64,000 bases of DNA from Planctomycetota bacterium (GTDB taxonomy: Bacteria > Planctomycetota > Phycisphaerae > WQYP01): positions 1-64,000 of the forward strand of contig JAKBMM010000010.1 in assembly GCA_021831565.1 (NCBI GenBank), read 5' to 3'. The position numbers were made by a program, and so were the translations under genes. Shown one piece after another: positions 5,202-27,077 of the stretch. The stretch's first letter is position 1. Every line of letters starts with the position of its first letter. The notes under the pieces are model-generated. The model ran no database searches. It was given only the letters and a program-made list of their open reading frames with translations, and was not told the origin of the DNA.

Positions 5202-5368
5202 GAGTCAAAGTATAATACGCCGCCGCCGGATTGAATACAGGCTCCGACCGGTGACGTTACAAAAGCAATCGGGTTGGATGGGCCGCCTGGCATCGTTATG
5301 ATCGATGTCCGGTTATGCGCCAAGCGGCGGGGCGTTTGCCAGCGGCGGATAAAATGGAGAACTACGGG

Positions 5369-7312: not shown

Positions 7313-7370
7313 AGGCGGCATCTGTTTCCGCCGGCGCGCCGCCGCGTCCGGAAAAAGAGCGGCGGCTTGG

Positions 7371-8768
7371 CTATCGCCCCAGGCCAATGGAACGCACTTT
7401 TACCCATGCTCCCGGCTGGCCCTTGCGCACCGGATCGATCCGCAATTGAATCATGGCCCCGCGGTATGTTTTGGCGCCGGAGAGATTCACTACGTAGTGA
7501 TGGTATCGACCGTCGCCGTGAATGGGAAAAAACACCCGGCGAGCCGGAGCAAAACCCCGATTGTGAAATCCGCGCCACCAGACGGCGCCGGTTTTGCGAG
7601 TAGTTTTGAAAGCGGCGTAAAGATAAAGATCCGGCGCTTCTCGGGCCCGCCAAAACCAGTCGGGACCGATCAATTGCGGGTGAGCGCCGCGCAGGGAAAC
7701 ATCCAAGCGCCCCCGGATCGGCCAACCGGTGTCGGTGGCGTCGTGATAAATCCAGTGTTGCCGGTTATTTGTAAAAACCCATTGCGGAGGCTTCGGCACC
7801 CCGTTATGTTTATATGCATAATTTCGTATCTGTTTTAGTGTTCCCACGATCAGCACGTAACGATAACGATAGTCGATATTATGATCGATGATATCGTGGA
7901 AAATGGGGGCGATATAACCAGTCGGCGCGGCGCGGGAACCTCCCTGGCCGGGCGGCCAGTTTGTAAACCCTCCCAAATAGAGATAATCGCCGGGAGTCCA
8001 GATTCCTATGCCAAACCCGGCGCGATTGACCAGGGCTGCCCAGTTTTCCGTCGCGTGCCAGGCGATCCATGGAAACTGATGCCGTTGAACCTCTTTCTGT
8101 TCGCGCCGCACCACGGCGCGCGGATCCAGCCAGTGCACCGCCTGATGGGTGAAAGGCTTCCGGCCCGTATACGATATCAGTCGCCAGAGTCTGCCTATGG
8201 TATAGATGGCCGGACATTCCTGCCCGTGGCCGGGATACTGGATTTTATTGCGGCGGAACGCCTCCATTTTGGCGTGCACATGGATCGTATCGCCCTGGAG
8301 GCGTATACTCGTCCGGAAAGTGCAATGGGCCGGCACATGGTCCAGGGGCCAGATCATGGGGATGCACCGAACCACCATGCGCGTGCCGGTGTTCTTGAAA
8401 TACACCGTTCGGGATCGCCATCCGAACACATCGCCCGCCTGAATGGGATTCCAGCCGAGGTTTCGCCAGACGGGCAAAATTTTCGCGCCCGGCGGAATAT
8501 AAGGAACCGGACCGGAATAATCCGACATCTGAATTTCCCGGCCCAGATCATGGTCATTGATGAGATTTTCCCTGCCGCCGGATTTTGAAATCCACGTGAT
8601 GGCGCCGCCCATGGCCAGATTCACTCCTACACGCACGCGGCCGTTGTCCAAGTAACGCATTCGGGGCGCCAGCGGACGGAGGGGCACGGCCGCAGTCGGC
8701 GGCAAGCCGGACGGCAACACTAGAGTAAAAATAAATATAAGTAATAGTCTACGAATATACATATACAA
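7371..8768 (-). CDS. Secreted protein of unknown function, mutarotase-like beta-sandwich suspected
   Basis: A 465-residue protein with a clear signal peptide (LLLIFIFTLVLPSGLPPTAA, residues 9-28). The mature part opens with YLDNGRVRVGVNLAMGGAIT, a pattern seen at the start of galactose-mutarotase-like and polysaccharide-lyase beta-sandwiches that describe a sugar-binding surface. It is rich in Trp, Tyr and His (WLDPRAVV, NWAALVNRAGFGIGIWTPGD). The last 120 residues look like a separate carbohydrate-binding-type module ending in QLRIDPVRKGQPGAWVKV. I cannot name a family. Carbohydrate processing outside the cytoplasm is inferred. It lies downstream of thiC on the same strand, with the stop of thiC adjoining its start. 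Confidence 0.6.
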   Translation of the reverse strand: MYMYIRRLLLIFIFTLVLPSGLPPTAAVPLRPLAPRMRYLDNGRVRVGVNLAMGGAITWISKSGGRENLINDHDLGREIQMSDYSGPVPYIPPGAKILPVWRNLGWNPIQAGDVFGWRSRTVYFKNTGTRMVVRCIPMIWPLDHVPAHCTFRTSIRLQGDTIHVHAKMEAFRRNKIQYPGHGQECPAIYTIGRLWRLISYTGRKPFTHQAVHWLDPRAVVRREQKEVQRHQFPWIAWHATENWAALVNRAGFGIGIWTPGDYLYLGGFTNWPPGQGGSRAAPTGYIAPIFHDIIDHNIDYRYRYVLIVGTLKQIRNYAYKHNGVPKPPQWVFTNNRQHWIYHDATDTGWPIRGRLDVSLRGAHPQLIGPDWFWRAREAPDLYLYAAFKTTRKTGAVWWRGFHNRGFAPARRVFFPIHGDGRYHHYVVNLSGAKTYRGAMIQLRIDPVRKGQPGAWVKVRSIGLGR

Positions 8769-10487
8769 TCAGTCCGGGCGTTCGCGAGCCGGGAAAGTCA
8801 ACAGTTGCACCCGTCTGGCTTGTTCGGGATCGGCGACATGGTCGCTGTGGCACGGCGCCTTTTCGCCCGGATGCGCCAGAGTATGAATCCGCCGGGGGCT
8901 CAGCACGCCGCGTTGTCGCAGCAGCTCCGCCCCCTGCCCGCTGATGCCCGCGGAGGGGATAGCCTTTTTCGCGGGCTGAAATTCCGGGTCTTTCCCGCTG
9001 GCAAATTCCTGGATCTCCTTGCTGATTCGCATGGAGCACCAGTCGTGTCCGCACATGGCGCAGAAATCGGTGTCCACTTCCAGGTCTTCATCATGCAGCG
9101 CCCGCGCCGTGGCGCCGTCAAAAGCCAATTCAAACATTTTCGGCCAGTTCAGCGCCGCCCGCGCGCGCGACATGTCATCGTCCCATTGCCGGGCGCCCGC
9201 GATGCCGCGGGCGATGTCGCCGGCATGAGCGGCGATTTTGTAGGCGATGCAGCCCGCCTGCACATCCTGCGCTTTGGGTAAACCCACATGTTCCTTGGGC
9301 GTGACGTAGCAAAGCATGGCCGCGCCGGCCCGGGCGGCTTCGGTCGCCCCGATGGCGCTGGTGATGTGGTCATAACCGGGAAAAACGTCCGTGGTGAGCG
9401 GTCCGAGTACGTAAAACGGAGCATCATCGCATATCCGTTGTTCGAGCTGCATATTCAGCGCGATCTGATCCATCGGAATATGCCCCGGCCCCTCCACCAT
9501 CGCCTGTACGCCCGCCTCCCGCGCCCTTTGCACCAATTCGCCAAGCGTCTGAAGTTCCGCCAGTTGGGCCGCGTCCGTGGCATCGGCGCAGCACCCCGGC
9601 CGCAGGCCGTCGCCCAGAGAATATGTCACGTCGTATTGCCGCATAATCGCGGAAATCTCGTCGAAAAGTTCATACATCGGGTTTTGCCGGTTGTGGATAA
9701 TCATCCATTTGGCCAGCAGACTCCCGCCGCGACTGACGATGCCGGTGAGACGGTTTTTGATCAGTGGAAGATACTCCTTGAGCACGCCGGCATGAATGGT
9801 GAAGTAATCCACACCCTGTTGCGCCTGCCTTTCGATTTCCTTGAGAATGATGTCGCAGGTAAGGTCCTCGATCCGCCGGCCGATGATCATGGAATAAATC
9901 GGAACCGTGCCGATGGGAATGGTGCTGTGATCGATAATTGCCTGCCGGCATTCCACCAGATTACCGCCGGTGGAAAGGTCCATCAGCGTGTCGGCGCCGT
10001 ATCTCTGGGCCCATTGGAGCTTTTCAATTTCTTCCTGCATGTTGCTGCTCACCGGCGAAGCGCCGATATTCGCATTGATTTTCGTGGTGATCTTGCGGCC
10101 TATACCCGTCGGGTCAAGCCGTTTGGGAGCGTGCCTTCCCCGAAAACTTTCTTCGTCGGCGATGATACTTGCCCGCTGGTCCACCGTCTGATTGACCCAG
10201 AGCCTGGTCCCTCCCGGGCGCGCGCCGGGATGGCCGCAATCCGCCGGCAATGGGTAATTCATTTCCATCGGATCGGAAGATCCGCCGCCGCGCCCGCCCG
10301 TGCCCTGCAAATGCCGGATGTTGGCCGGAATAACCAACCGGCCGATCTCCACCTCACGGCGGATAAATTCGGGAGATTGCCCTTCGCGCTGTGCGACGCG
10401 GCGCATCTGCGGCGTAACAATGCCGGCACGGGCGAATTCGTATTGCGTCGCCGGTCGCCGACCGTTGGATGATGTCGATGGAAACAT
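8769..10487 (-). CDS. thiC: Phosphomethylpyrimidine synthase (HMP-P synthase)
   Basis: Radical-SAM enzyme converting aminoimidazole ribotide to the pyrimidine of thiamine. Diagnostic segments are [55 protein letters not shown] and the C-terminal iron-sulfur cluster motif CAMCGHDWC. An AGGAGG ribosome site precedes the ATG at 10487, and a TPP riboswitch lies in the leader. Odd feature: between IPANIRHLQ (about residue 61) and [14 protein letters not shown] (about 128) there are some 60 extra residues, rich in Gly, Pro and Arg at first. Most ThiC proteins have only a few residues at this point. Confidence 0.95.
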
Positions 10488-10596
10488 CTTGCGTACCTCC
10501 TATGGACAAGGGCCGCTGAACAAGCGGCGAAACAACAGGGTAGAATCGCGGCGGAAAACCGGTATCAGGGGGCAAGCGGCTGAAAGATCGACAGCT

Positions 10597-10701
10597 TGGG
10601 CTCGCGTTCCCTACGCCGGTACAACCCGGTTCAGGTTCTAAGGGTTTGTTCTCAGTCCCGGCTTATCCGCCGCGGCGGGTTCCGGGACACCCCTAGCGAA
10701 C
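10597..10701 (-). promoter_or_regulatory. TPP riboswitch (thi box) upstream of thiC
   Basis: Read on the minus strand, the leader contains the hallmarks of the TPP aptamer: CTAGGGGTGTCCCGG, then GGGACTGAGAACAA, CCCTTAGAACCTGAACC and ACCGGCGTAGGGAACGCGAG. The pieces TTCGCT and GCGAG at the ends can form helix P1. It ends about 110 bases before the thiC start, leaving room for an expression platform. High thiamine pyrophosphate would be expected to reduce thiC expression. Confidence 0.95.
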
Positions 10702-10709
10702 TAAAAATA

Positions 10710-10738
10710 ATTATAACGGTTTTCCTGACCGGTGTGAA
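10710..10738 (-). promoter_or_regulatory. Probable sigma70-type promoter of thiC
   Basis: On the minus strand TTCACA (10738-10733) is followed after exactly 17 bases by a perfect TATAAT (10715-10710). Transcription would begin close to the first base of the TPP riboswitch, so position and spacing agree. Confidence 0.65.
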
Positions 10739-10875
10739 CAGGTGGGATGGCGTGGCATTTTTTCGCAAATGCCCGCCTGTGCGTGAACGCTCGCAGGCAG
10801 TCGTTTGGAACCGTCAATCCCGATTCAATCCCGATTCTTGACGCTTCGGCTGCCGGATGTTAGGTTCAAATGAAC

Positions 10876-10909
10876 CGCCGTTAAGGAATCCAAGATTCAC
10901 TTAACGGCG
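10876..10909 (+). promoter_or_regulatory. Stable hairpin in the leader of the SH3-domain gene
   Basis: CGCCGTTAAG (10876-10885) pairs perfectly with CTTAACGGCG (10900-10909), and the loop contains GAATC/GATTC which can extend the stem. It sits directly before the AAGGAG ribosome site of the gene at 10925. A second small stem, GGTTC AAAT GAACC, lies just upstream. There is no U-tract typical of a terminator, so it may be an mRNA stability element, an operator or a translational control structure. Confidence 0.4.
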
Positions 10910-10924
10910 TTTAAGGAGATTCCC

Positions 10925-12466
10925 ATGTGCTTCCGTACGGTCCGTTTGGGCAATCGCAACGTTTCGCTTATCACTCTCATCCTGGCTGGCGTGTTCGCCG
11001 CAGCGTTTGGTTTCGCCGGCTCGGTTGTTGTGGTTGGGTCCGTCCAGGTTCCGGCTGCGACCACCGCGCCGTCGACAGAGCCGGCGTCAACACCAGCCTC
11101 CCGTTCCGTCAACGTACCGATACCCTCGCCAAGCCCCTCGCTCCAGGCAACCACCAGGCCCAGTCGCAAATCCAGCGCTACCTCTTCCAGGGCTTTGTCC
11201 AAAAAGCCTTTTGTCGGCGTGGTAAATGCGACGGATGTCAACGTTCGCAGCGGGCCGGGACTGGCCTATTACCCCGTGGGACAATTGACGCGGGGCGATC
11301 TGGTCAGAGTAGTCGGGACGGTCAGAAGTTGGTATCGCATTGCCGCCCCGGTGGGAACGCGCTGCTATATAGCCAGCCAATACATAAAACTCGCGCCTGG
11401 CGGTGCGAAGGGTCGTGTGAGTGCGGACTTTGTCAATTTACGCGCAGCCAGCGCGTTGGCGCCCGCCAGCCACTATGCGGTAGTCGGACTGGTGCGCCGG
11501 GGCGAGCATGTTTCCATTACGGGCCAATCCGGAAAATTCCTCATTATTCGACCACCGCATGGAACGACGTTCTACATTGCCGCCCGATTTATCCGGCCCG
11601 CGGCGGCAGGTAGCGTTTACGTGACCGCCCGGATTAAGATGCCCGCCGGTTTTCATGGACCGGGGCTTGCCACGCGGTTGGCTTCTTCCGCCGGCACAGG
11701 CGGCGCGTCCGCCGTGACGACCCAACCAGTCGCCGCTGCGCAAGTTGCCGCTACGCAAGCGGTCGTACCACTGCCCTCCAGCGGCGTTTCTACATCATCC
11801 GGCGTACCCGCTCCGACCAGCCGGCCCGCGGTTATTCCAGTTATTCCCGGTTTGGTGGCGCCGGCGCCGCAAGTTTCCTACAATCAGTCCGCCTACACCG
11901 CCTTCAGCCGTCTCAATCACAAAATTCAGTTGGAATTTCGCAAACCACTGCTGCAAGAGCGGCATCTGGCGTCGCTTTTGAAAGGCTACCAGAACTTGCT
12001 TAAACGTCCCCAATTGCCACCCTCGGTGCGGCGGGGCAGTGTCGCGCGCATTCAATTGCTTAAGAAGGAACTCGCCATTCAAAAACTGGTTGAGTCGGCC
12101 GCGAAGGCGCCACCGATTAAACAGGTGATCGCTCCCTATCAACAGCAATGGAAAAAATCACAGGAGGAGATTGCCAAGGCCTACGAAAATGCGCCCTACC
12201 TGGCCAAAGGCGTTCTCAAAACCAGTCAGGCCGTCAGGGATTACGCACTGGTCGATCCGGCAACCGGCCGGGTGATCGCCTACCTTGTGCCGAACGGGAA
12301 AATCGCGATTTCCAAGCTGCTCGGTTCTTACATCGGTGTGAAAGGCGAAGTGATCAGTAAAACCGGTATGACGGTCAAGGTGATTCAGGTTGTCAGCGCC
12401 ACGCTTTTGCCGCCACCCCATATCCGGCGTGCGCCCGGCGGCGGAGGTTCCCAGTCCGCACCATGA
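10925..12466 (+). CDS. Exported protein with two bacterial SH3 domains
   Basis: A 513-residue protein. Residues 13-40 form a signal sequence or membrane anchor (VSLITLILAGVFAAAFGFAG). A Pro/Ser/Thr-rich linker follows. Two bacterial SH3 repeats come next: the first from NATDVNVRSGPGLAYYPVGQ, the second from VSADFVNLRAASALAPASHY. Such domains bind cell-wall peptides or other ligands. A second low-complexity linker leads to a helical region (QLEFRKPLLQERHLASLLKG) and a small C-terminal beta domain (VYVTARI-type strands are earlier; the end reads GKIAISKLLGSYIGVKGEVI). The start has a strong AAGGAG site. Role in the envelope is inferred; no catalytic domain is visible. Confidence 0.8.
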   Translation: MCFRTVRLGNRNVSLITLILAGVFAAAFGFAGSVVVVGSVQVPAATTAPSTEPASTPASRSVNVPIPSPSPSLQATTRPSRKSSATSSRALSKKPFVGVVNATDVNVRSGPGLAYYPVGQLTRGDLVRVVGTVRSWYRIAAPVGTRCYIASQYIKLAPGGAKGRVSADFVNLRAASALAPASHYAVVGLVRRGEHVSITGQSGKFLIIRPPHGTTFYIAARFIRPAAAGSVYVTARIKMPAGFHGPGLATRLASSAGTGGASAVTTQPVAAAQVAATQAVVPLPSSGVSTSSGVPAPTSRPAVIPVIPGLVAPAPQVSYNQSAYTAFSRLNHKIQLEFRKPLLQERHLASLLKGYQNLLKRPQLPPSVRRGSVARIQLLKKELAIQKLVESAAKAPPIKQVIAPYQQQWKKSQEEIAKAYENAPYLAKGVLKTSQAVRDYALVDPATGRVIAYLVPNGKIAISKLLGSYIGVKGEVISKTGMTVKVIQVVSATLLPPPHIRRAPGGGGSQSAP

Positions 12467-15287: not shown

Positions 15288-16505
15288 CTACTTCGCACAG
15301 AAGTGATTGCGGCGATTCTGTGCTTCGTTCATTTCGCCGGCAGTGGGGCTTGTGCCGGTGCGCATCATCTGCACGAAGCAATCAAATAAATAGGTCGCGT
15401 CGTGCGGTCCCGGGCTGGCTTCCGGATGATATTGCACAGCAAAGACCGGCTCGTCCCGCAGACGAAACCCTTCCAGGGTGTTGTCGTTGAGATTGATATG
15501 GGTCGGTTCGCCGCCCTGCTTGCGCAACGACTCAACATCAACGGCAAAACCGTGGTTCTGCGAGGTAATTTCGACTTTACCGGTGGAGATGTTCCGCACC
15601 GGCTGGTTGCCGCCGCGATGGCCGAATTTGAGCTTGAATGTCGACGCGCCCAGCGCCAGGCCGAGCAGTTGATGGCCCAGGCAAATGCCAAAGATGGGCT
15701 TTTGTCCAATGAGTTCCTTGAGTGTCCGCTGCGTGTGGATGATCGGTTCGGGATCGCCCGGCCCATTGCTGACAAATACGCCATCGGGCTGGTAGTCGAG
15801 AATCTCCTGGGCCGTGGCGGCGGCGGGTACTACGGTCACGCGACAGCCGCTTTGCACCAGGTTCCGCAGGATGTTGCGTTTGGCGCCGCAGTCGACGGCG
15901 ACCACATGCGGCGCCTTTTTGTCCGAAACGCCGGATCCATCCGCCTGCTGCGTCCAACCGCCCTTGTCCTGGTCCCACTGGTACGGCTGGGCGGGCGTGA
16001 CCAGTTTGACCAGGTCCAGACCGACCAGGCCTCTCCAGGTCTGGGCGCGGCGGACCAGTTCGGCGTCGTCATGGACAAGCTTCTGGTCCGTGCAGATGGT
16101 GCCTTTGAGTGCTCCTTGCGTGCGGAGCTTGCGCACCAGCGCGCGGGTGTCAATGCCCGCCAGCCCCGGAATATGATGGCGCAGCAGGTATTCATGGAGC
16201 GATTCGACAGCGCGGAAATTGCTCGCAATCGGCGAAAGTTCCTTGACAATGAAACCCTCCACCTGCGGGTGCGCGGATTCCTCATCGACCGAATCGGCGA
16301 TGCCATAGTTGCCGATCTGCGGGTAGGTCATCGTGACGATCTGGCCGCGGTAGGACGGATCGGTGAGGATTTCCTGGTAGCCGCTAAGCGACGTGTTGAA
16401 CACCACTTCGCCGACGCTCAGTCCGGCGGCGCCGAAAGCAAAGCCGGTGAACAGGGTTCCATCTTCCAGCGCCAACTTGGCCGGCGTCATTGGTTCCTGC
16501 GGCAT
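15288..16505 (-). CDS. carA: Carbamoyl-phosphate synthase small chain
   Basis: Glutaminase subunit supplying ammonia to CarB for pyrimidine and arginine synthesis. The N-terminal domain starts at [17 protein letters not shown] and contains [20 protein letters not shown]. The C-terminal class I amidotransferase domain has the nucleophile Cys in [16 protein letters not shown] and the His/Glu pair in [14 protein letters not shown]. The N-terminal start is ambiguous: ATGs at 16511, 16505 and 16490 are candidates, and the frame is open to 16574. carB is not in the window. An insert of about 15 residues ([17 protein letters not shown]) lies before the amidotransferase domain. Confidence 0.95.
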
Positions 16506-16607
16506 GGGCATTCCCGGAAAACAAGCTGATGTTTCACATATAACCGGTGCAATTATAGCCGCCGCGCGGCGCAAGACAATGAACCATCGGGAGAAAGTGC
16601 CATCGAA

Positions 16608-16735
16608 TGCATGACCCTTATAGTACTACAGCGCCACTTCAAGACCTCCTTTGGACACTCTTGAGTCTGGTCTCTTTTCGACTGTGCCCACACAAAATCT
16701 TGATAAAGTGCGCTGTAGTACTAAAGTGTCATGCA
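16608..16735. repeat. MITE-like inverted-repeat element
   Basis: The arms 16608-16639 and 16705-16735 are near-perfect inverted copies of each other, about 31 bases long. The best-matching core is TAGTACTACAGCGC at 16621-16634 and its complement at 16710-16723. The 65-base centre has no coding potential. The whole could fold into a very long hairpin or be a non-autonomous transposable element. It lies between the divergent carA and pqiA genes and overlaps the apparent pqiA start. Confidence 0.7.
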
Positions 16736-17291
16736 CCCTTGGTGGGGGTGGTTTGGAAAAAGGGCTGCCGCGTTGACCGTAAATAGTAGAAAATCTCTCT
16801 GGCAGCATTACCCTGGCCGCGTGGATATTCTCCTGTATCTTTTGGCGCTTTTGGGCTTGCTGGTTACGGCACAATGTTTGCCGGTGCTGTCGATCAAAAA
16901 ATTTGTCTTCTGGAAAAGCAGCTATTCCCTCTGGTCGGGAACCATCGGACTATTTCGAGACCAGTATTACGGGCTGGGAGCCATCTTGTTCACTTTTTCC
17001 ATTCTGTTCCCTTTTACCAAACTTGTGATTCTACTGGTATTGTGGTGCGGACAGTTTACTGACCGGCAGCGACTCAAGGTTTTCAAGTGGCTCGAATACC
17101 TGGGCCGCTGGTCCATGATGGATGTTTTTGTGGTTGCCATTATCGTGGTAATCGCTAAATCGGGGGGCGCCCTGCAGGCGACTCCTAAAATCGGAATCTA
17201 CTTTTTTACCACGGCCATTATTTTATCATTGGTTCTGACCATGTATATACGACAATTGGCCAGGCGGATTTCCAGAAAAAAAACGGATTAG
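16731..17291 (+). CDS. PqiA-like (paraquat-inducible protein A) integral membrane protein
   Basis: A 186-residue protein with four hydrophobic segments: ILLYLLALLGLLVTAQCLPVL, the region LFTFSILFPFTKLVILLVLW, MMDVFVVAIIVVIAKSG and IYFFTTAIILSLVLTMYI. The motif SLWSGTIGLF and the short cytoplasmic ends match a single PqiA domain. PqiA proteins work with MCE proteins in lipid transport between the membranes, but no MCE partner is next to it. The ATG at 16731 lies within the right arm of the inverted repeat, so translation may instead start downstream, for example at TTG 16773 or GTG 16821. Confidence 0.8.
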   Translation: MHPWWGWFGKRAAALTVNSRKSLWQHYPGRVDILLYLLALLGLLVTAQCLPVLSIKKFVFWKSSYSLWSGTIGLFRDQYYGLGAILFTFSILFPFTKLVILLVLWCGQFTDRQRLKVFKWLEYLGRWSMMDVFVVAIIVVIAKSGGALQATPKIGIYFFTTAIILSLVLTMYIRQLARRISRKKTD

Positions 17292-17304
17292 TGCGGCCGC
17301 CTGG

Positions 17305-17576
17305 ATGATGAGGTCTGTTCTAGCGGCAACGGTGATATTATTTGGCGCAAAGCTGGGCGCGCCGCTGCGCCGCGGGAAATCGGAAAGAGCGGGCGTGGTG
17401 ACGCAGACGGCATCGACACAGCCCAGTGCGTCGAGTTGGGCATCGCCAGTCATGGGCACAGTGAAGAAGAGGCCTTGCGCAACCTGCGGGAAGCTCTGGA
17501 ACTATACTTCGAGCCGCCTACCGCTACGATCGTGCCCAAGCGCACCGCCGTAGAGGTGGAGCTTGCGGCGGCTTAA
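17305..17576 (+). pseudogene. hicB: Degraded HicB-type antitoxin gene
   Basis: From the ATG at 17308 the frame gives MRSVLAATVI, a typical start for this HicB type. After an unrelated stretch of about 90 bases, a different frame gives AQCVELGIASHGHSEEEALR and then NLREALELYFEPP, ending at TAA 17574-17576. That is the central and C-terminal HicB sequence. The frame change and extra bases mean no intact antitoxin can be made. Confidence 0.7.
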
Positions 17577-17655
17577 GCCCACGCCTTAGCGCGAGATTTT
17601 CCGCAAGCTTCGCGTGGCCGGTTTCACCGAAATCAGTCGGAAGGGCGGTTATGTC
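17563..17655 (+). pseudogene. hicA: Degraded HicA-type toxin gene remnant
   Basis: Overlapping the hicB end as in intact modules, the plus strand reads LRRLKPTP, an in-frame TAG, then REIFRKLRVAGFTEISRKGG and YVIQ. This is the start of a HicA mRNA interferase, with the expected Trp codon after PTP changed to a stop. The conserved catalytic His region and the C-terminus are missing, and the remnant runs into the convergent AraC-family gene. Confidence 0.65.
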
Positions 17656-18442
17656 ATTCAGACAATAACGTCGGCCGCCGGAGATGGTTGGGCGGATAGC
17701 CCGCGACGCGATGGAAAGTTCGAGAGAAATGAAAAGGATCGGACAGACCGGTCCGATGGGCAATCGCCTTGATCGGAAGGTCTGAACCGAGCAAAAAGCC
17801 CCGCGCCGCTTCGACGCGGCACTGCGTCAGAAACCGCATCGGCGATTGGCCCACATGACGTCGAAAGAGCCGGCTGAAATGGAAGGGTGAAAGATGTACC
17901 GCCGCGGCGATGTCCGTCAGCCGCAGCGGTTCGGCAAGGTGCTCGCGCATGTAGTTAATGGCCGCGTGCGCGGTCTGCGTGGAGGGTAAATTGAATGCCG
18001 AATGGCGGGTCAACTCATAAAGCACCGCTTGCAGCAGGGCCGCCTGAGTCACGTGTTGAACCATCTGCTGAGCCGGCGATAATTCATGCATCCATTGCAC
18101 CAGCATTTGGATGCGGCCGGTTTGATCAAAGCTGACGATTGGCTTCGCGCCCAGATTCGCCCCGGCCGGTCCCGTCTGGAAGCCCACAAAAAGCGTTTCC
18201 AGCGCGGCGCCGCCAACGGCCGTCTCTTTGTGGGCGAATCCCTGAGGATAGAACAGAACGCTGCCGGATTCGCCGCGCAGCGTTTTTCCGGCGATATGGG
18301 TCTCAATTTGCCCACGGAGAACCACGATCATTTCATGGTTGTCATCGTGCCGATGGTGCGCCATGGACCATCCGGTCTGCGGATCGACATATCCCGTATA
18401 AGCAACCTGAGGTAAAACGCCTGCGGCGCGGGTCCGTGGCAT
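17654..18442 (-). CDS. AraC family transcriptional regulator with cupin sensor domain
   Basis: A 262-residue regulator. Residues 20-90 form a cupin-type ligand domain (HHRHDDNHEMIVVLRGQIET with the metal-site-like His residues). The last 100 residues contain two helix-turn-helix units of the AraC type: LTDIAAAVHLSPFHFSRLFR and IKAIAHRTGLSDPFHFSRTF. It is divergent from a dehydrogenase/isomerase gene set across about 117 bases, so it probably controls that sugar pathway in response to a small sugar or sugar acid. This role is inferred from gene order. Confidence 0.92.
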   Translation of the reverse strand: MPRTRAAGVLPQVAYTGYVDPQTGWSMAHHRHDDNHEMIVVLRGQIETHIAGKTLRGESGSVLFYPQGFAHKETAVGGAALETLFVGFQTGPAGANLGAKPIVSFDQTGRIQMLVQWMHELSPAQQMVQHVTQAALLQAVLYELTRHSAFNLPSTQTAHAAINYMREHLAEPLRLTDIAAAVHLSPFHFSRLFRRHVGQSPMRFLTQCRVEAARGFLLGSDLPIKAIAHRTGLSDPFHFSRTFHRVAGYPPNHLRRPTLLSE

Positions 18443-18559
18443 GGGGCGCCATCATACCGCAAGAATTGATAAAAAAACAGCAAGATTGACTATAGCGGGC
18501 CTTTTAGCAATCGATTAGGCTTGATTACCATCTCAAGTAGGAATGACGGGAAGCTGTGT

Positions 18560-19627
18560 ATGTCGCCCTTGCGTCTGGGATTCGTCGGCGCCGGCTCCAT
18601 GGGACAAGCCGCCCATTTGCGGAATTACGCCGCCTTGGAGGATTGCCAGCTTGCGGCGCTGGCGGAATTGCGGCCCGAACTGGCGCGTAAGGTCGCGCAG
18701 CGCTATGGCGTGGCGCGAGCATACGCTACCCATCGTGAAATGATTCGGCAGGAACGCAGTGATCTCGACGCCATTGTCTGCATCGGTCCGTTCACCCACC
18801 ACGGGTCCATTTTGCCGGATCTGCTGGCCACAGGTTTGCCGGTGTTGACGGAGAAGCCGATGGCCGGATCCGTGGCCATTGGCGAGCAACTTTTGGCCAA
18901 GTGTCGTGCGGCGGGGGGGCAATGGTACGTGGCCTATCATAAGCGCAGCGATCCGGCCGTGATGTGGGCTCGGCGCCAGATCGAAACCTGGAAAGCCTCC
19001 GGCCAAATGGGAGCGATGCGTTATGTCCGCATCACGATGCCGCCCGGCGATTGGATTGCCGGAGGATTTACGTGGCTGATCCGCACGGATGAGCCGTATC
19101 CCGCCGGTCAGGCCGATCCGGCTCCGGCGGGGATGAGCGGTGGGCAATTCAAGCTTTGCACGGAGTTTGTGAATTTCTACATCCACCAGGTCAATTTACT
19201 GCGCCATCTTCTGGGAGAACCGTATCGCGTCACATGGGTGGATCCATCCGGCGTGCTGCTGGTCGGCCACGGCTCCTCGGGGGTTACGGGCGCCATTGAG
19301 ATGGAACCCTACCGCACCAGGGGGGCCTGGCAGGAGGCGGCGGTAGTCTGCTTTGAGAAGGGGTGGATACGTATTGAACTGCCCGCTCCGCTGGCCATCA
19401 ATCATCCCGGCCGAGTGATCTTTTACACCGATCCTGGCGATGGTGCTGAGCCGCAGCGGATGGAGCCGCAACTGCCCTGGATCGACGCCATGCGGCAGCA
19501 GGCCATTCACTTTTTGAAAGCCGTGCGTGGTGAAAACACACCTCTGGCCACCGCCGAGGAGGCGCTGGAAGATTTGAGAATCGCCCAACAATGGCTGGAT
19601 CTGCGCCAAAATGATGTGAAAAAATAA
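18560..19627 (+). CDS. Gfo/Idh/MocA family oxidoreductase
   Basis: A 355-residue protein with an N-terminal Rossmann fold starting RLGFVGAGSMGQAAHLRNYA and the family EKP motif in LPVLTEKPMAG, where the Lys is catalytic. The C-terminal domain is the alpha/beta dimerisation domain of the family. These enzymes oxidise or reduce sugars, inositols or bound glycans with NAD(P). The neighbouring isomerase/epimerase and the divergent AraC regulator suggest catabolism of an uncommon sugar. The ATG at 18560 immediately precedes the Rossmann fold; a longer frame starts at 18521. Confidence 0.9.
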   Translation: MSPLRLGFVGAGSMGQAAHLRNYAALEDCQLAALAELRPELARKVAQRYGVARAYATHREMIRQERSDLDAIVCIGPFTHHGSILPDLLATGLPVLTEKPMAGSVAIGEQLLAKCRAAGGQWYVAYHKRSDPAVMWARRQIETWKASGQMGAMRYVRITMPPGDWIAGGFTWLIRTDEPYPAGQADPAPAGMSGGQFKLCTEFVNFYIHQVNLLRHLLGEPYRVTWVDPSGVLLVGHGSSGVTGAIEMEPYRTRGAWQEAAVVCFEKGWIRIELPAPLAINHPGRVIFYTDPGDGAEPQRMEPQLPWIDAMRQQAIHFLKAVRGENTPLATAEEALEDLRIAQQWLDLRQNDVKK

Positions 19628-19711
19628 GCCGGCCTTCGCCAGCGGCAGACCACTGCGTCTAAGTTGGCCGACAGCTTGGCTATCAACTTTTTAGAAAGGA
19701 AAATCAAGGCA

Positions 19712-20536
19712 GTGAAACGAACACAAATCGCCATCGCCACGGTTTCCACCATGCCGGCTGAGCCGCTGGAGGAAAAACTTCGCTCGTATGCCGCCGCCGG
19801 TTTCCGCAACGTGGAGCTTCAACTCGGCGAAGCGAAACGCTGGATAGCGCAGGGGCGCCGGTCCGCGGACCTGCGGCAACTGCTCGCTTCGCTGGGCTTG
19901 CAATGCCGCGGTGGCTTTGAATGCCCGGTAGAATGCTTCAGCGACGACGCCCGGCGCCGCGCGAATCATCAGCTGCTGGCGGCCAATGCGCGGCTTCTGG
20001 ATGAGCTTGGCGGCGGCGCGATGGTCGTCGGCACGGATGGACCCGCGGAAAACACCTTGGAGGCGTTGAGTGAGATTGGGCAAACCCTGGCTAAGCTCGT
20101 CGAGCAGTTTCCGCAGACCGTTTCCCTGGCGGTGGAATTCAACTGGTCGCCGATAGTTAAGAGCCTGCGGTCGGCGGTATTGGTGGCGCAAGCCGCACGG
20201 CATCCGCGCGTGGGCATCCTCTTTGATACGGCTCATTATCATTGCACCAGCAGTAAGCTGGAAGATATTGATCAAGCCAGTGTGGCGCTGTTCAAGCACG
20301 TGCATATCAACGACATGCTGCCGAAGCCTGGTGAACACAGCCAGTGCAATGACGATCGCGTATTGCCCGGTTCCGGCCGGGGCTGTCTGGACGTAAAAGA
20401 GATAGTGCGCCGCATCGAACGATTCGGCTATACGGGATACTTTTCGTTGGAAATGTTCAATCAGGATTTATGGCGGGCGGCCTCATCAAAAATCAGCGGG
20501 GACATGTATCAATCAATGGTCGGCCTGTGCGAATAG
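19712..20536 (+). CDS. Sugar phosphate isomerase/epimerase (xylose isomerase-like TIM barrel)
   Basis: About 274 residues of an AP-endonuclease-2/xylose-isomerase-like TIM barrel. Barrel strands and metal residues appear in AAAGFRNVELQLGEAKRW, TVSLAVEFNWSPIVKSL (Glu ligand), VGILFDTAHYH (Asp/His ligands), FKHVHINDM and GYTGYFSLEMFNQDLWR (Glu). These enzymes isomerise keto-sugars or epimerise at C3. The GTG at 19712 follows AAAGGA and is preferred to a longer in-frame ATG at 19664. It follows the Gfo/Idh gene closely, probably in one transcript. Confidence 0.88.
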   Translation: MKRTQIAIATVSTMPAEPLEEKLRSYAAAGFRNVELQLGEAKRWIAQGRRSADLRQLLASLGLQCRGGFECPVECFSDDARRRANHQLLAANARLLDELGGGAMVVGTDGPAENTLEALSEIGQTLAKLVEQFPQTVSLAVEFNWSPIVKSLRSAVLVAQAARHPRVGILFDTAHYHCTSSKLEDIDQASVALFKHVHINDMLPKPGEHSQCNDDRVLPGSGRGCLDVKEIVRRIERFGYTGYFSLEMFNQDLWRAASSKISGDMYQSMVGLCE

Positions 20537-20661
20537 CACGGGCGATTTCAGCCGCCCGGCCGCGGAAAACGACGGAGAAAACCGGATGATACAAAATAAA
20601 CTTAACCCTACAACGCTGCCTCGACAGGCCCGACCAGCGACCAGTAAGAAAGAAAAATCCC

Positions 20662-20841
20662 ATGAGTCACACCCGTACCGGAAAATTCCCGATCGGCTTT
20701 CGCCGCATCGCGTCCGCATGGCAACGCGACCTGCAAACCGTTATTGATTTCGCCAAGGCCAACCGTTTTGCGGGCATCGACGTTGACGCCGTGACGCCAG
20801 CGAATATCCAGTCCATCGCCTCCGCTGGCTTGCGCATAGGC
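20662..20841 (+). pseudogene. N-terminal fragment of a second sugar isomerase/epimerase
   Basis: The first 60 codons read KFPIGFRRIASAWQRDL, DFAKANRFAGIDVDAVTP and IASAGLRIG. These fit the start of a planctomycete-type xylose-isomerase-like protein, with first barrel strand, helix and second strand. The homology ends abruptly at about 20841, where the leader of a GH99-like gene begins in the same frame. The remainder of the isomerase is missing. The fragment is therefore either a relic or the N-terminus of an accidental fusion protein. Confidence 0.7.
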
Positions 20842-21981
20842 ATGGTTAGGAACTTTTTTACGCAACGCTCGTTTCGCAATTGTATCCTGGGACTGGGGCT
20901 TTTCCTGGGCCTTGGGGCAAGAGCCCCGAACACCTATGCTCACCCCCGGCCAGCCGTCACGGTGGGCGTGTATTATTTTGATGGTTGGAACTACAAAAAC
21001 TCCCACCTCACCAAAGAGCTGGCCACGCGCTTTGCCTACCGCAAGCCTATATGGGGCTGGTACGACAATACGGAGGCGATTATGCGCGAGCAAATTGATC
21101 TGGCCGCCGATCATGACATCGCTTTCTTCGCGTTCGACTGGTTTTACAAGACCGTCGCCAACAATCACGCGTTACATTTGTTCCTGAAAGCTTCGAATCG
21201 CAATCGCATGAAGTTCTGTGTGATGTTAACCAGCACCATTACCCCCAAGGAATGGAACAACTGCTCGCGCCGGTTACTGGCATATTTTAAGCAGCCGACC
21301 TACCTGCGGCTGCGCGGCCAAGCCTTCTTGATTATTTATAATCCGGGGGGATTGATCCACAACTTCGGCGGCGTTGCGGCCATGCGCAAAGCCTTCGGGC
21401 AATTACGGGCTAAAGCCAAAAAGGAAGGTATTCCCGGAATTCAAATCGCCGGCATCCATTCACCTGTGAACCTGAACAACCTGGTTCAAGCCGGCTATAA
21501 TGAAGTGACGGGCTACAAATATCGTCCCTTCCGCTATGATGCTTTTGTATTGCACAGCAGACCCAAACCATTTTCGGAGTTGATAGCTTCCAGTAGAAGA
21601 AAATTTAATACGTTTGTTGGGGCGCCGCTGCTATACATCCCGGCGATTACCGTCGGTTGTGACCACCGGGGAACGAATGATTTCCGGCCTTCCGACTGGT
21701 TCCCACGCACTCCGCACTATCTGGAGCGGTTCGTGCGGATGGGAGTCCGATGGATTTATCATTTTCATCATGGCAGTTCTTCACCCGCCAAGCGCGTACT
21801 CATGCTGGGCGCGTGGAACGAATATGGCAGTGACGCTTTTCTTACTCCAACCGCCAGCAGGGGCGACGCCTATCTTGATGCCGTCAAGCGGGCGGTGGCT
21901 ACCCCTCCCAATGCTTATAGCGGAGAATTGCCCGCCATGCGTGAAATCGTTAAGCCGCCTCATTCCTCCGGTGATAAATAA
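20842..21981 (+). CDS. GH99/WbsX-like secreted protein, copy 1
   Basis: The mature part (VTVGVYYFDGWNYKNSHLTK, AYRKPIWGWYDNTEAIMREQ, DHDIAFFAFDWFYKTVANNH, PGIQIAGIHSP and VLMLGAWNEYGSDAFLTPTA) fits the GH99-like WbsX family, TIM-barrel proteins linked to glycan processing. A signal sequence (NCILGLGLFLGLGARA) precedes it. Aligned with copy 2, the position of the copy 2 ATG is ACG here (20860-20862), so the original start has been lost. Translation may begin at ATG 20842 or be fused to the upstream isomerase fragment from 20662, giving 439 residues. Copies 1 and 2 share long identical stretches but differ strongly in the middle around PKEWNNCSRRLLAYFKQPT. Confidence 0.8.
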   Translation: MVRNFFTQRSFRNCILGLGLFLGLGARAPNTYAHPRPAVTVGVYYFDGWNYKNSHLTKELATRFAYRKPIWGWYDNTEAIMREQIDLAADHDIAFFAFDWFYKTVANNHALHLFLKASNRNRMKFCVMLTSTITPKEWNNCSRRLLAYFKQPTYLRLRGQAFLIIYNPGGLIHNFGGVAAMRKAFGQLRAKAKKEGIPGIQIAGIHSPVNLNNLVQAGYNEVTGYKYRPFRYDAFVLHSRPKPFSELIASSRRKFNTFVGAPLLYIPAITVGCDHRGTNDFRPSDWFPRTPHYLERFVRMGVRWIYHFHHGSSSPAKRVLMLGAWNEYGSDAFLTPTASRGDAYLDAVKRAVATPPNAYSGELPAMREIVKPPHSSGDK

Positions 21982-22020
21982 TCAGGCGTATCGCTGTGGC
22001 GACATAATAGGAGATTTCTT

Positions 22021-23160
22021 ATGCAATGCTCAATTCGTAACTTTATCCTGGGATTGGGGCTTTTCCTGGGCCTTGGGGCAAGCGGCTCATATACCTATGC
22101 TCACCCCCGGCCAGCCGTCACGGTGGGCGTGTATTATTTTGATGGTTGGAACTACAAAAACTCCCACCTCACTAAAGAGCTGGCCACGCGTTTTGCCTAC
22201 CGCAAGCCTATATGGGGGTGGTATGACAATACGCAAGCGATTATGCGTGAGCAAATTGATCTGGCCGCCGATCACGACATCGCCTTCTTCGCGTTCGAGT
22301 GGTTTTACAAGACCGTCGCCAACAATCACGCGTTGCATTTGTTTCTAAAAGCTTCCAACCGCAACCGCATGAAGTTCTGTTTAGATATATGCAGTGATCT
22401 TACTCCAAAAAAATGGAAATCCTTCTCTGCCCGAGCACTGACTTATTTTAAGGAGCCGACTTACCTGAGGCTGCATGGCCAGGCTTTTTTAATCATTGGT
22501 AATCCAGGAGGATTGGGGCAATTGATCCGCAACTTCGGCAGCGTTGCGGCCGTGCGTCGCGCCTTTGGGCAATTGCGGGCTAAAGCCAGAAAGGAGGGCA
22601 TTCCCGGGATTCAAATCGCCGGCTGCAGCTGGCCGCCTATGAACCACCTATTTAAGCAAATGGTCCAAGCCGGCTATAATGAAGTAACGGACACAGGATA
22701 TCGTCCAGTCCGCTATGATGCCTATGTATTGCACAGCAGACCTAAACCATTTTCGAAGTTGATAGCTTCCAGTAGAAGAAAATTTAATACGTTTGTTGGG
22801 GCGCCGCTGCTATACATCCCGGTGATTACCGTCGGTTGTGACCACCGGGGAACGAATGATTTCCGGTCTTCCGACTGGTTCCCCCGTACGCCGCACGGTC
22901 TGGAGCGGTTCGTGCGGATGGGAGTCCGATGGATTTATCATTTTCATCACGGCAGTTCTTCGCCCGCCAAGCGCGTACTCATGCTGGGCGCGTGGAACGC
23001 ATATGGCAGTGGTGGTTTTCTGACGCCAACCGCCAGCAGGGGCGACGCCTATCTTGACGCCGTGAGGCGGGCGGTGGCCACCCCCCCCAATGCTTATAGC
23101 GGAGAATTGCCCGCCATGCGTGAAATCGTTAAGCCGCCTCATTCTTCCGGTGATAAATAA
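22021..23160 (+). CDS. GH99/WbsX-like secreted protein, copy 2
   Basis: A 379-residue paralogue of copy 1 with an intact AGGAGA ribosome site and ATG. The signal peptide is residues 1-28 (NFILGLGLFLGLGASGSYTY then AHPRP). The mature domain carries the same landmarks: GVYYFDGWNYKNS, WGWYDNTQAIMREQIDLAAD, FFAFEWFYKTVANNH and LMLGAWNAYGSGGFLTPTAS. In the loop after the barrel strand, copy 1 has the acidic AWNEYG typical of the family, while here it is AWNAYG. The Glu to Ala change may remove a catalytic or structural acid. Substrate unknown; probably acts on a glycan outside the cytoplasm. Confidence 0.85.
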   Translation: MQCSIRNFILGLGLFLGLGASGSYTYAHPRPAVTVGVYYFDGWNYKNSHLTKELATRFAYRKPIWGWYDNTQAIMREQIDLAADHDIAFFAFEWFYKTVANNHALHLFLKASNRNRMKFCLDICSDLTPKKWKSFSARALTYFKEPTYLRLHGQAFLIIGNPGGLGQLIRNFGSVAAVRRAFGQLRAKARKEGIPGIQIAGCSWPPMNHLFKQMVQAGYNEVTDTGYRPVRYDAYVLHSRPKPFSKLIASSRRKFNTFVGAPLLYIPVITVGCDHRGTNDFRSSDWFPRTPHGLERFVRMGVRWIYHFHHGSSSPAKRVLMLGAWNAYGSGGFLTPTASRGDAYLDAVRRAVATPPNAYSGELPAMREIVKPPHSSGDK

Positions 23161-23200
23161 TCATGTCTATTACTGAGACGATATAACGGGAGATTCCTTT

Positions 23201-23335
23201 ATGCAACGATTGCATCGCAACCTTGTCCTGGGACTGGGCCTTTTCTTGGGCCTTGGGGCAAGCTTTGCGAATGCCAACGTCCGTGCCCCGCCGGCAGGAG
23301 CCAGGTGTGTAAGAAAAGTTGTCGCGTGGCATTAA
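23201..23335 (+). pseudogene. Truncated third copy of the GH99-like gene (signal peptide only)
   Basis: The same leader and ribosome-site sequence (GGGAGATTCCTTT before ATG) is followed by a signal peptide almost identical to copy 2 (NLVLGLGLFLGLGASFANA). The frame then gives only about 20 unrelated residues before TAA at 23333-23335. The mature GH99-like domain is gone. It could still be expressed as a 44-residue secreted peptide, but is best read as a deletion relic. Confidence 0.75.
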
Positions 23336-23351
23336 CATTAAGGAGTATAAT

Positions 23352-24251
23352 ATGTTCAAGTTTTTACATTTTAATCAATCGGATAACGCCCCCACCGTCC
23401 GGAACCCGTCCGATTCACGATATGCCGGCCGGCGGAACTTTTTGCGGCGCGGCCTGCTGACTCTGATCGGCGGCTTGTTTCTATCCCAACGCGCACCGGC
23501 TGCCGCGGCGCGCGATCCCCGCCGTCCGGCGCTGGTAACGGAAGGGGAGACGCTCAAAACCATCGTGAAGTTGGGCGAACCCCCGGTGCCTCCGCTCGAC
23601 ACGTTGGTCCTGTTTGAGCGCGCGGACAACCACCACAGGCGCGCCGAGCCCCATGAAAACTCTTCGCTGATCCACACCCATGAAATCCTTTCGCTGATCC
23701 ACGAGGAAAAAGGCACAAACTCTTCCCCCTGGAGCTTGTACGCGCAGCTAACGAGTCACCACGTAGTCGGCGACGCCGTGGTGCTCTGCTCACGCTTGAT
23801 CAAGAAGGGCGCCGGCTGGTCCGCCGGGCATCACTCCGAGGTATTTTCCCACGCGAGTGGTGTCGCTATCGGCCTGAACGTGGAGGTGAGTAACTACTAC
23901 ACCGGCCCGGAGGCCACCGAGGTGATCGGCGTTAATATCCAGCCGACCCACGGCCCGCGGCCTTGTCAATACGGCATTCAGATACAGCAAGGAGAAGGCG
24001 GACGCGTCCAATTTGAAAAGGCGATCGGCCTGAACGGCGGCGGTGCGGTCGGAGTAGATCTGGCGGGGCATTTCAAGGAAGCGGGCATTCATATGCACGA
24101 TAACCCCATCCGGCTCAATGAGGGAGCGAGCCTCGAACTCGATGGCGTGGGGAAGGTGCGGCTGCGCTATCATAACGGTCGCATTGAGTTTATGAATGGG
24201 CCGCGCTGCGTGGGACACATTGATGTGAACGGAACCGACCACGCGATGTGA
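23352..24251 (+). CDS. Exported beta-rich protein of unknown function (Tat-like signal)
   Basis: A 299-residue protein with AAGGAG before the ATG at 23352. Residues 25-55 contain two closely placed twin arginines and a hydrophobic stretch (RRNFLRRGLLTLIGGLFLSQ), resembling a Tat signal. The mature part is Gly-rich with alternating polar strands: SHHVVGDAVVLCSRLIKKG, ASGVAIGLNVEVSNYYTG, TEVIGVNIQPTHG and LNEGASLELDGVGKVRLRYH. This looks like a stacked beta structure similar to phage tailspike tips or beta-helix proteins. I do not recognise a family. It follows the GH99-like array, possibly in the same transcript. Confidence 0.7.
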   Translation: MFKFLHFNQSDNAPTVRNPSDSRYAGRRNFLRRGLLTLIGGLFLSQRAPAAAARDPRRPALVTEGETLKTIVKLGEPPVPPLDTLVLFERADNHHRRAEPHENSSLIHTHEILSLIHEEKGTNSSPWSLYAQLTSHHVVGDAVVLCSRLIKKGAGWSAGHHSEVFSHASGVAIGLNVEVSNYYTGPEATEVIGVNIQPTHGPRPCQYGIQIQQGEGGRVQFEKAIGLNGGGAVGVDLAGHFKEAGIHMHDNPIRLNEGASLELDGVGKVRLRYHNGRIEFMNGPRCVGHIDVNGTDHAM

Positions 24252-24346
24252 GAAGAGAGAAAGTTTCGGACGCAAATTTTCCGCGTAGTTGGTTCTGCGG
24301 AGGAAAGGATTGGTTCGAACGCTCTTTTTTTAAAGGAGAACGCGCT

Positions 24347-24391
24347 ATGTCGGAGGGAATCCAGAATCCCAGCGGCGCCGCCGCGTGGTAG
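24347..24391 (+). CDS. 14-residue ORF with a strong ribosome site upstream of thrC
   Basis: AAAGGAG lies 7 bases before this ATG, and the frame codes for MSEGIQNPSGAAAW then TAG. It is too short to classify. It contains no threonine codons and one isoleucine codon, so it does not look like a classical thr-operon leader. It may be a relic of a truncated gene or a chance ORF. Confidence 0.25.
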   Translation: MSEGIQNPSGAAAW

Positions 24392-24422
24392 CCCCTTCCG
24401 TTTGCCGATAGAATGGCCGGCT

Positions 24423-25877
24423 ATGAAGACCATCGGCTTCCAGAAATGCATCAATCCCGCCTGCGGCGCTACCTACGATGTCAGCCAGACGCTTACCGCG
24501 TGCCGGCAATGCGGGGAACTGCTGGATATCCGCTACGATTGGGACCGGGCGCGGTTACCCACGTCGTTGCGGATGTTCCAGGAGCGCTGGCAAAATCGGC
24601 GGTTTCCACTGGATTATTCGGGCGTGTGGCGGTTTCGCGAGTTGCTGCCCTTCGCCGTTGACGCCATGGTCTGCACAATCGGCGAAGGGCAGACGTTTTT
24701 ACAGAACGCCGTCTGCCTGGGACGCCAGATCGGCGTATGGCCGGGACAATTATGGCTGCAATACGAGGGAATGAATCCTTCGGGCAGTTTCAAGGACAAC
24801 GGCATGACTGCGGCGTTCACGCACGCGCGACTGGTCGGCGCGCGGCGGGTGTCCTGCGCCAGCACGGGCAATACATCGGCTTCGCTGGCGCTTTACGCGG
24901 CCCTGAACGGCTTCCAAGGAATTGTGTTCATCGGATCGGGGAAAATAGCCTTCGGCAAACTTTCCCAGGCGCTGGACTATGGCGCCCGCACGCTGCAGAT
25001 CGAAGGCGATTTCGACACCTGCCTGGCGCGGGTGCGGCAAGTGAGCGGGCAGATCGGGTTGTACCTGATGAACAGCGTCAACCCGTTTCGGCTGGAGGGC
25101 CAGAAGACGATCATGTACCGCGTTCTGGAATCGCTCAATTGGGAGCCGCCGGATTGGATTATTGTCCCGGGAGGAAACCTGGGAAATTGCTCCGCGTTCG
25201 GCAAGGCGTTCGCGGAGCTGTTTGAACTGGGATTGATCAAGCGAATTCCGCGTTTGGCGGTGATTAACGCACAGGGTGCCGACACGCTCTACCAGCTTGT
25301 GCGCCAAGGTGTGGCCTGGAATGATGGAAAGGTGGACGACGCGGCCATCCAGGCGTTTTATGCGCGGCGGGAAAAGGAAAACATTCATCCGCATACGGTG
25401 GCTTCGGCGATTGAAATAGGTAGACCGGTGAACTTAAAAAAAGCCCTGCGTACGCTGGCCTGGACCCATGGCGTGGTTATCGAGGTTTCCGATCAGGAGA
25501 TACTCGAGGCCAAGGCGCTGATCGGCCGGTACGGTTTCGGCTGCGAACCGGCCAGTGCGGCGACGGTGGCGGGATTGCGGCATCTGCTGGAAAAGCAGGT
25601 TGTTTCGCGGCACGAGCGGGTGGCGTGTATATTGACCGGTCACGGGCTAAAGGATCCGGATGCGACGGTGTATTACCACACGGGTATCCAAACCAGGCAG
25701 GCCCAAACTCTTCCGCCGGAACCAACCTGGGGGCTCAAAGCCAACCAGCCGGTAAAAGTATCGGATGACTTGCCGGAGATCGTCGCGGCGCTGGGACTCG
25801 ACGGCGACACGCTGGAAAAGAGCCGTCAGACCGGCTACGTGGAAACCAACCTTGATCTGCCGTTTGTGGAGTATTGA
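24423..25877 (+). CDS. thrC: Threonine synthase
   Basis: PLP enzyme converting O-phosphohomoserine to threonine. A zinc-ribbon-like start (C9, C14, C27, C30) is followed by the PLP-lysine segment GMNPSGSFKDNGMTAAF with Lys at about 124. Later come CASTGNTSASLALYAA, PGGNLGNCSAFGKAF for phosphate binding, and GFGCEPASAATVAGL. The length of 484 residues, with a C-terminal extension (EPTWGLKANQPV...), fits the longer threonine synthase class. The preferred start is ATG 24423, since the zinc ribbon starts directly after it; the frame is open to 24402. lpxD follows at once. Confidence 0.93.
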   Translation: MKTIGFQKCINPACGATYDVSQTLTACRQCGELLDIRYDWDRARLPTSLRMFQERWQNRRFPLDYSGVWRFRELLPFAVDAMVCTIGEGQTFLQNAVCLGRQIGVWPGQLWLQYEGMNPSGSFKDNGMTAAFTHARLVGARRVSCASTGNTSASLALYAALNGFQGIVFIGSGKIAFGKLSQALDYGARTLQIEGDFDTCLARVRQVSGQIGLYLMNSVNPFRLEGQKTIMYRVLESLNWEPPDWIIVPGGNLGNCSAFGKAFAELFELGLIKRIPRLAVINAQGADTLYQLVRQGVAWNDGKVDDAAIQAFYARREKENIHPHTVASAIEIGRPVNLKKALRTLAWTHGVVIEVSDQEILEAKALIGRYGFGCEPASAATVAGLRHLLEKQVVSRHERVACILTGHGLKDPDATVYYHTGIQTRQAQTLPPEPTWGLKANQPVKVSDDLPEIVAALGLDGDTLEKSRQTGYVETNLDLPFVEY

Positions 25878-25879
25878 TA

Positions 25880-27043
25880 ATGTCCCAGCCGCGGCACAAT
25901 GAAAGTACCGTTGCCCGGCTGGCGGCGCATGTCGGGGGGCGGGTGATCGGCGACGGCAATCGAAGGATTGTACGATGCAACGGCCTGGTTTCGGCGGGGC
26001 CGGAGGATATTAGTTTTCTTGCCAACGCCAGATACGCCAGGCATCTGGCCACGACCGGCGCCGGTTGCGTGGTGCTGGGAAGAGATATGGATCCGGCCCA
26101 AATCGAACGCGGGAATCGCTCGCCTCTGACGGTCATTCAGACCGACGATCCCTATTATGGGTTTCGGCAGATTGTGGTGTTGCTGCATGGATTCCGGCCG
26201 CATCCGGCAGTGGGCGTTTCACCTCTGGCGGCGATCGCGCCGTCGGCGAAACTTGGCGCGGATGTACAGATTCATCCGTTCGTGAGCATCGGTGAAAATG
26301 TTCTGATCGGCGACCGCTGCATACTTTATCCGCACGTGACAGTTATGGACGGATGTATAATTGGCGATGACTGTATTTTATATCCCGCGGTAACGCTCTA
26401 CGACCAGTGCGTGCTGGGTATGCGGGTTGTCTTGCATGCCGGAACCGTGGTGGGGGGCGACGGTTACGGTTTTGCCACGCATCAGGGAGTGCATCACAAG
26501 ATTCCCCAGATCGGCAACGTGGTGTTGGAGGATGACGTGGAAATCGGCGCCAACACGGTGCTCGAGCGGGCGGCGATGGAAAGCACCATCATTGGCCGGG
26601 GAACCAAATTGGGCAACTCGGTGGTGATCGGGCACAACTGCCGGATCGGCGAACATAATCTGCTGGTAAGTCAGGTGGGAATCGCCGGCAGCACCACCAC
26701 CGGCCGCCACGTGGTGATGGCGGGCCAGGTGGGCGTGGCGGGACATTTGAATATCGGCGATATGGTTCGGGTGGCGGCGCAATCGGGCGTTATAGCGGAC
26801 GTGCCGGCGGGGCGGGACATCGGCGGCAGCCCGTCCCTGGAGATGAGGCAGGCGCGCAAGGTTTATCTGCAGTTCGTGCAGTTGCCGGAACTGGCCAAGC
26901 GGGTTCAACAACTCGAAGACGCCCTGAAAAAGCTCCAGGCGGAAAGAGAAGACGGTCCCGCCGACGCGGACGGCAAGCCGGACGCGGGGCACGGGACAGA
27001 TCCCGAAAAATCAGGACAAATTCCCGGCGGCGCCGGTTCTTAG
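25880..27043 (+). CDS. lpxD: UDP-3-O-acylglucosamine N-acyltransferase, paralogue 1
   Basis: Hexapeptide-repeat acyltransferase that adds the N-linked acyl chain in lipid A synthesis. The N-terminal domain contains CNGLVSAGPEDISFLANARY. The left-handed beta-helix follows (IHPFVSIGENVLIGDRCILY and onward), with the catalytic His in VVIGHNCRIGEHN and GVAGHLNIGD later. A C-terminal helix (LPELAKRVQQLEDALKKLQA) fits the trimer-capping helix, followed by a charged Gly/Asp-rich tail. It begins 3 bases after the thrC stop. A second lpxD lies at 49936 in the lipid A operon, so this copy is probably specialised. Confidence 0.9.
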   Translation: MSQPRHNESTVARLAAHVGGRVIGDGNRRIVRCNGLVSAGPEDISFLANARYARHLATTGAGCVVLGRDMDPAQIERGNRSPLTVIQTDDPYYGFRQIVVLLHGFRPHPAVGVSPLAAIAPSAKLGADVQIHPFVSIGENVLIGDRCILYPHVTVMDGCIIGDDCILYPAVTLYDQCVLGMRVVLHAGTVVGGDGYGFATHQGVHHKIPQIGNVVLEDDVEIGANTVLERAAMESTIIGRGTKLGNSVVIGHNCRIGEHNLLVSQVGIAGSTTTGRHVVMAGQVGVAGHLNIGDMVRVAAQSGVIADVPAGRDIGGSPSLEMRQARKVYLQFVQLPELAKRVQQLEDALKKLQAEREDGPADADGKPDAGHGTDPEKSGQIPGGAGS

Positions 27044-27077
27044 CCGGCACAGTTTGTGTGCTCCGCATCGAGTCCGA

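Follow-up and report, generated by a model that had tools for sequence, protein, structure and literature searches.

Does the array of GH99/WbsX-like genes in this 64,000-nt stretch of DNA (the window) represent an active duplication site of secreted glycan enzymes, as the original prediction held, or does it preserve an older duplication whose products have changed? The window comes from a draft genome of 86 contigs (G000), available without reads, and it was compared with a sister genome (G001). The predicted three-copy array is real: a repeat search recovered a direct-repeat unit of ~1.16 kb in two long copies, together with a third copy consisting of the leader only. The copies are spaced by 1161 and 1180 nt, and copies 1 and 2 differ by 12%. 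The leader repeat family (D3) has three members of 98 nt with 72-85% identity. A common leader pattern had been proposed for all three, and this was found to be only partly correct, since within the array the exact form GGAGATTTCTTATGCAA occurs in copy 2 only, while copies 1 and 3 carry the variants GGAACTTTTTTACGCAAC and GGAGATTCCTTTATGCAAC, respectively. The leader was also considered as a mobile or recycled cassette, an idea that was dropped when a genome-wide pattern search turned up no exact match beyond copy 2 and a paralogue on contig C68. The features of the region are collected in Table 1.

Table 1. Features of the array and of the island that carries it (window positions).
Feature	Position	Strand	Description and basis
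Island between carA and thrC	16605..24368	.	~7.8 kb; absent from the matching site in G001
AraC-family regulator	17654..18442	-	Pfam HTH_18, Cupin_2; divergent from operon
GFO/IDH/MocA oxidoreductase	18521..19627	+	Pfam PF01408
Xylose-isomerase-like TIM-barrel protein	19664..20536	+	Pfam PF01261
Copy 1 fusion ORF	20662..21981	+	439 aa; GH99/WbsX-like part from ~20850; PF14307 E=2.8e-12
Isomerase/epimerase gene fragment	20662..20847	+	~62 first codons with own start codon; in-frame fusion to copy 1
Alternative ATG of copy 1, giving N-terminal signal peptide MVRNFFTQRSFRNCILGLGLFLGLGARAPNTYA	20842..20844	+	Sequence; hydrophobic peak at residue 14; putative use
ACG at aligned ancestral start of copy 1	20860..20862	+	Leader alignment; preceded by GGAAC, not GGAGA
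Copy 1 active-site motif E-Y-G-S	21820..21831	+	First Glu kept, second is Ser; alignments, profile match to 4ACZ
Copy 2	22021..23160	+	379 aa; leader complete; signal peptide; ORF list; PF14307 E=1.3e-8
Copy 2 active-site motif A-Y-G-S	22999..23010	+	Both Glu lost; alignments
Copy 3 relic	23201..23335	+	Start and signal peptide to ~23286, then 5' region of next gene; repeat family D3
Tat-signal-like protein, family unassigned	23352..24251	+	84% aa homologue in G001, on a different contig
Second leader relic (Tat-signal pectate-lyase-like gene)	24333..24371	+	Ribosome site, ATG 24347, ~8 codons; cut at thrC junction

Regarding family membership, PF14307 (Glyco_tran_WbsX) matched copy 1 with 47.2 bits, copy 2 with 35.2 bits and the C68 paralogue with 46.2 bits, all three above the gathering cut-off of 25.1. 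For PF16317 (GH99), copies 1 and 2 gave no match at E<=1, and the C68 paralogue reached 17.0 bits (E=0.003), under the cut-off of 33. With a profile of eight relatives, GH99 structures rank first in the PDB (4ACZ, whole-sequence E=0.0013), the NE..EG of the profile being aligned with the NEWHEG of GH99 endo-alpha-mannosidase/mannanase (PF16317; BtGH99 4ACY/4ACZ, BxGH99 4AD1). The GH99/WbsX-like label is thus supported, both by the PF14307 scores of the two copies and by the reach of the family profile to GH99 structures. In a tree, copies 1 and 2 and the C68 paralogue form one clade (support 100/99) among PF14307 relatives, mostly of the same class. Structure prediction from four sequences yielded a model whose mean pLDDT, 45.9, was too low to support a fold search or to judge geometry. 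The neighbourhoods of more distant relatives contain sulfatase, GH127/alginate lyase-like, beta-helix and MocA genes, and no partner gene is conserved in a way that would point to the substrate. The literature collection searched had nothing on WbsX together with GH99 or Planctomycetota.

The active site separates the two copies from their relatives. The original prediction contrasted AWNEYG in copy 1 with AWNAYG in copy 2, and both are present, in the contexts WNEYGS and WNAYGS. The motif is covered by 39 relatives, counting C68; 38 of them have the first Glu of NExxE (Asp in the remaining one) and all 39 the second. The C68 paralogue, with ENGE, has both. By counting along the profile alignment to 4ACZ, this pair corresponds to E329/E332 of BtGH99, a mapping that depends on a poorly matched part of a borderline profile hit (E about 1e-3), whereas conservation of the motif within the PF14307 relatives is strong. 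The two Glu of the GH99 motif have been described as catalytic and conserved (PMC11025385). Given the conservation of this Glu in relatives, the one-letter difference between copies 1 and 2 represents the loss of a probable catalytic residue, and the change from Glu to Ala in copy 2 adds to the second Glu, already missing in both copies. Compared with GH99 itself, the window copies score below the cut-off, and of the catalytic Glu pair copy 1 has only one member and copy 2 neither. Copy 2 had been called intact, which holds for its reading frame but not for the equivalents of the catalytic Glu; the enzyme is probably not intact. From these substitutions we infer that both copies are catalytically dead or crippled, and the description of the array as coding for secreted glycan enzymes becomes doubtful, since a complete acid/base pair is found in neither. 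A parallel is falcon MANEAL, likewise a duplicated GH99 member with a lost catalytic motif, whose change from EWHE to KWHE was read as pseudogenisation (PMC11025385). The present case differs in being bacterial and in concerning a PF14307 relative; its copies stand in tandem, and the loss extends to both, their frames still being open. A literature search on glycosidase pseudoenzymes found nothing with the terms tried.

The dispersed paralogue on C68, a third full member in this genome (64% aa identity), would be its active family member. Direct repeats of 150 nt with 97% identity (5368-5517 and 7218-7367 of locus L005, G000:C68) flank this gene and derive from a broken Y1/REP-type transposase gene, which suggests that it was inserted into, or copied with, an element of that type. 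A contig binned with another genus (L050, JAKATV010000399.1; G022:C361), with a coverage of 1.8, is identical to C68 at 3438 of 3438 bases. An upstream break between the two was considered as strain variation and rejected, owing to the coverage of 1.8 and to the 18 differing end bases, which resemble C68 with errors; G022:C361 is probably a misbinned contig. In the sister genome, a WbsX-like C-terminal fragment lies at a contig end (L049 13055-13141, G001:C205), adjoining a GH36-like gene and a transposase-like remnant.

At the left edge of the array, copy 1 bears a foreign N-terminus, unlike the PF14307 family. The fragment fused to it shares 68-69% aa and 74% nt identity with intact sugar-phosphate isomerase/epimerase genes in this genome and its sister (G000:C35, G001:C116), and the intact relative matches PF01261. 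Isomerase homology ends at ~20847 and homology to the copy 1 leader starts at ~20849, in frame, with the isomerase start codon (ATG 20662) retained in the copy 1 ORF. The predicted change from ATG to ACG is present, accompanied by a weakened ribosome site; loss of the start is nevertheless only half of the picture, as the ORF stays in frame from the upstream ATG. Such degradation of the start and of the ribosome site is expected if translation enters from upstream, and copy 1 would be translated from the isomerase start or from ATG 20842. According to sequence and hydropathy, its signal-peptide region occupies residues ~65-92 of the long ORF and becomes N-terminal if ATG 20842 is used, while in copy 2 a predicted positive n-region, hydrophobic core and cleavage site lie at residues 1-28. 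A deletion presumably joined the 5' codons of the isomerase gene to copy 1, and the in-frame fusion may stand in for the lost start.

At the right edge, copy 3 had been described as a ribosome site and signal peptide followed by unrelated codons. The first part of this description stands. From 23287, however, homology is to sequence that precedes the Tat-signal-like gene in the sister genome, so the supposedly unrelated codons belong to the 5' leader of the gene that follows, and copy 3 has lost its body, presumably to a deletion that left the copy 3 leader joined to that gene. The Tat-signal-like product of the downstream gene gave no match in Pfam or NCBIfam. The second leader relic, further downstream, resembles L005 7412-7448 (81% over 37 nt, E=1e-5), where the gene belongs to PF12708.

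The array and its neighbours occupy an island between carA and thrC, two genes named by eye from the sequence. Window positions 16001-16604 and 24369-27045 align at ~94% to positions 8194-8797 and 9151-11827 of the sister-genome locus L099, where the flanks of the island site are only 354 bp apart; counterparts of the island genes are located on other contigs of that genome, with 73-82% nt identity. In the four other family members examined, carA was not found within 1.5 kb of thrC. A candidate relic of the array in the carA-thrC gap of the sister genome amounted to a 19-nt match (E=0.19), which is not significant. At the left island edge (16608-16735) there is an inverted repeat of 30 nt (91%), its arms separated by a 66-nt loop; it was considered as a MITE and rejected, being single-copy in the genome and absent from the sister genome. 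At 17350-17700, a HicB-like remnant (DUF7387 match) is followed by a broken HicA-like stretch, recognised by eye, as a toxin-antitoxin relic.

Divergence between copies 1 and 2 is distributed unevenly, as had been predicted. The middle (21239-21354/22400-22515) shows 74% nt identity, against 91-93% in the outer segments. Moreover, dS is 0.17 in the flanks (codons 28-105 and 225-end) and 0.73 in the middle (codons 105-225), reaching 1.39 in codons 105-160. Within codons 119-177, copy 1 shares clustered sites with C68 beyond chance (permutation p <= 2e-4), which, with the contrast in dS, supports the proposed segmental exchange. The patchy dS is consistent with outer parts made alike by gene conversion, or with copy 2 having taken up a divergent middle. 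Together, the flank and middle values of dS indicate that the duplication is not recent. Tandem duplication is supported, but its recent or active state is not: the idea of an active duplication site gives way to an old duplication, with deletion and decay seen instead.

With a probability of roughly 0.7, and on the strength of sequence comparison, the array would go back to an old duplication in tandem, with gene conversion and deletions at the edges leaving two probably non-catalytic GH99-like proteins. The duplicated gene would have encoded a secreted TIM-barrel protein of GH99-like (PF14307) type, and the array would be part of a sugar-catabolism operon within a mosaic island. Tandem duplication would have been followed by gene conversion of the ends and by deletions at both array edges. 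Purifying selection would have maintained both proteins over at least some of their past, perhaps in the role of glycan binders, with copy 2 now relaxing. All parts of the array are accounted for by known processes. Retention of the copies as binding proteins is possible; the fuller picture of tandem secreted GH99-like pseudoenzymes that a sugar-utilisation operon keeps as non-catalytic glycan binders, with one copy now started from a truncated isomerase N-terminus, is only tentatively put forward.

The selection data bear on the strongest competing explanation, namely that decay was neutral throughout and that both copies are pseudogenes-to-be whose frames simply have not been broken so far. 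Overall dN/dS between the copies is 0.26 (95% 0.17-0.38), an average that takes in time before the catalytic loss and does not imply selection after it. In the flanks it is 0.20 (0.09-0.38), under the neutral expectation of 1, and neither copy contains a stop or frameshift, both of which argue against neutral decay. The lost catalytic residues, the altered start and ribosome site of copy 1, and the reduction of copy 3 and two other genes to N-terminal stubs point the other way. So does the lineage-specific ratio of synonymous to nonsynonymous changes in copy 2, which, polarised by C68, is 27:35, compared with 32:20 in copy 1 (Fisher p = 0.06). These counts are only suggestive of weaker constraint on copy 2; if anything copy 1, despite its lost start, is the better conserved. 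On balance, neutral decay throughout is rather doubtful as the whole explanation. Less probable still, and on the whole unlikely, are functional secreted glycan hydrolases whose catalytic apparatus has diverged. Each copy still has its signal peptide region and many conserved positions, and copy 1 retains the first Glu, but the invariant second Glu is Ser in both, copy 2 is without the first, and at the Trp of the GWD motif, invariant in the remaining rows of alignment A2, both copies have Cys. That the fusion and relics are chimeric joins of the assembly is very improbable: repeats are a known hazard in an 86-contig draft, and a 3.4-kb piece of C68 recurs at 100% identity in the low-coverage contig of another genus's bin, but the one further isomerase gene of this kind found in the genome matches the fragment at just 74% identity, and copies 1 and 2 diverge by 12%, which leaves no identical sequence to mis-join, and the ATG to ACG change beside the join is not the product of a chimera.

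Old duplication followed by conversion and edge deletion, the preferred reading, gives the array its meaning as a route of decay, with converted ends, deletions at the edges, a fusion perhaps replacing a start, and the acid/base pair lost in both copies. Elsewhere in the genome an active-looking paralogue survives while the array copies decay. A domain match alone is poor ground for annotating such copies as glycosidases or glycosyltransferases. Furthermore, should these proteins be kept despite the absence of catalysis, they would provide a testable bacterial example of GH99-like pseudoenzymes.
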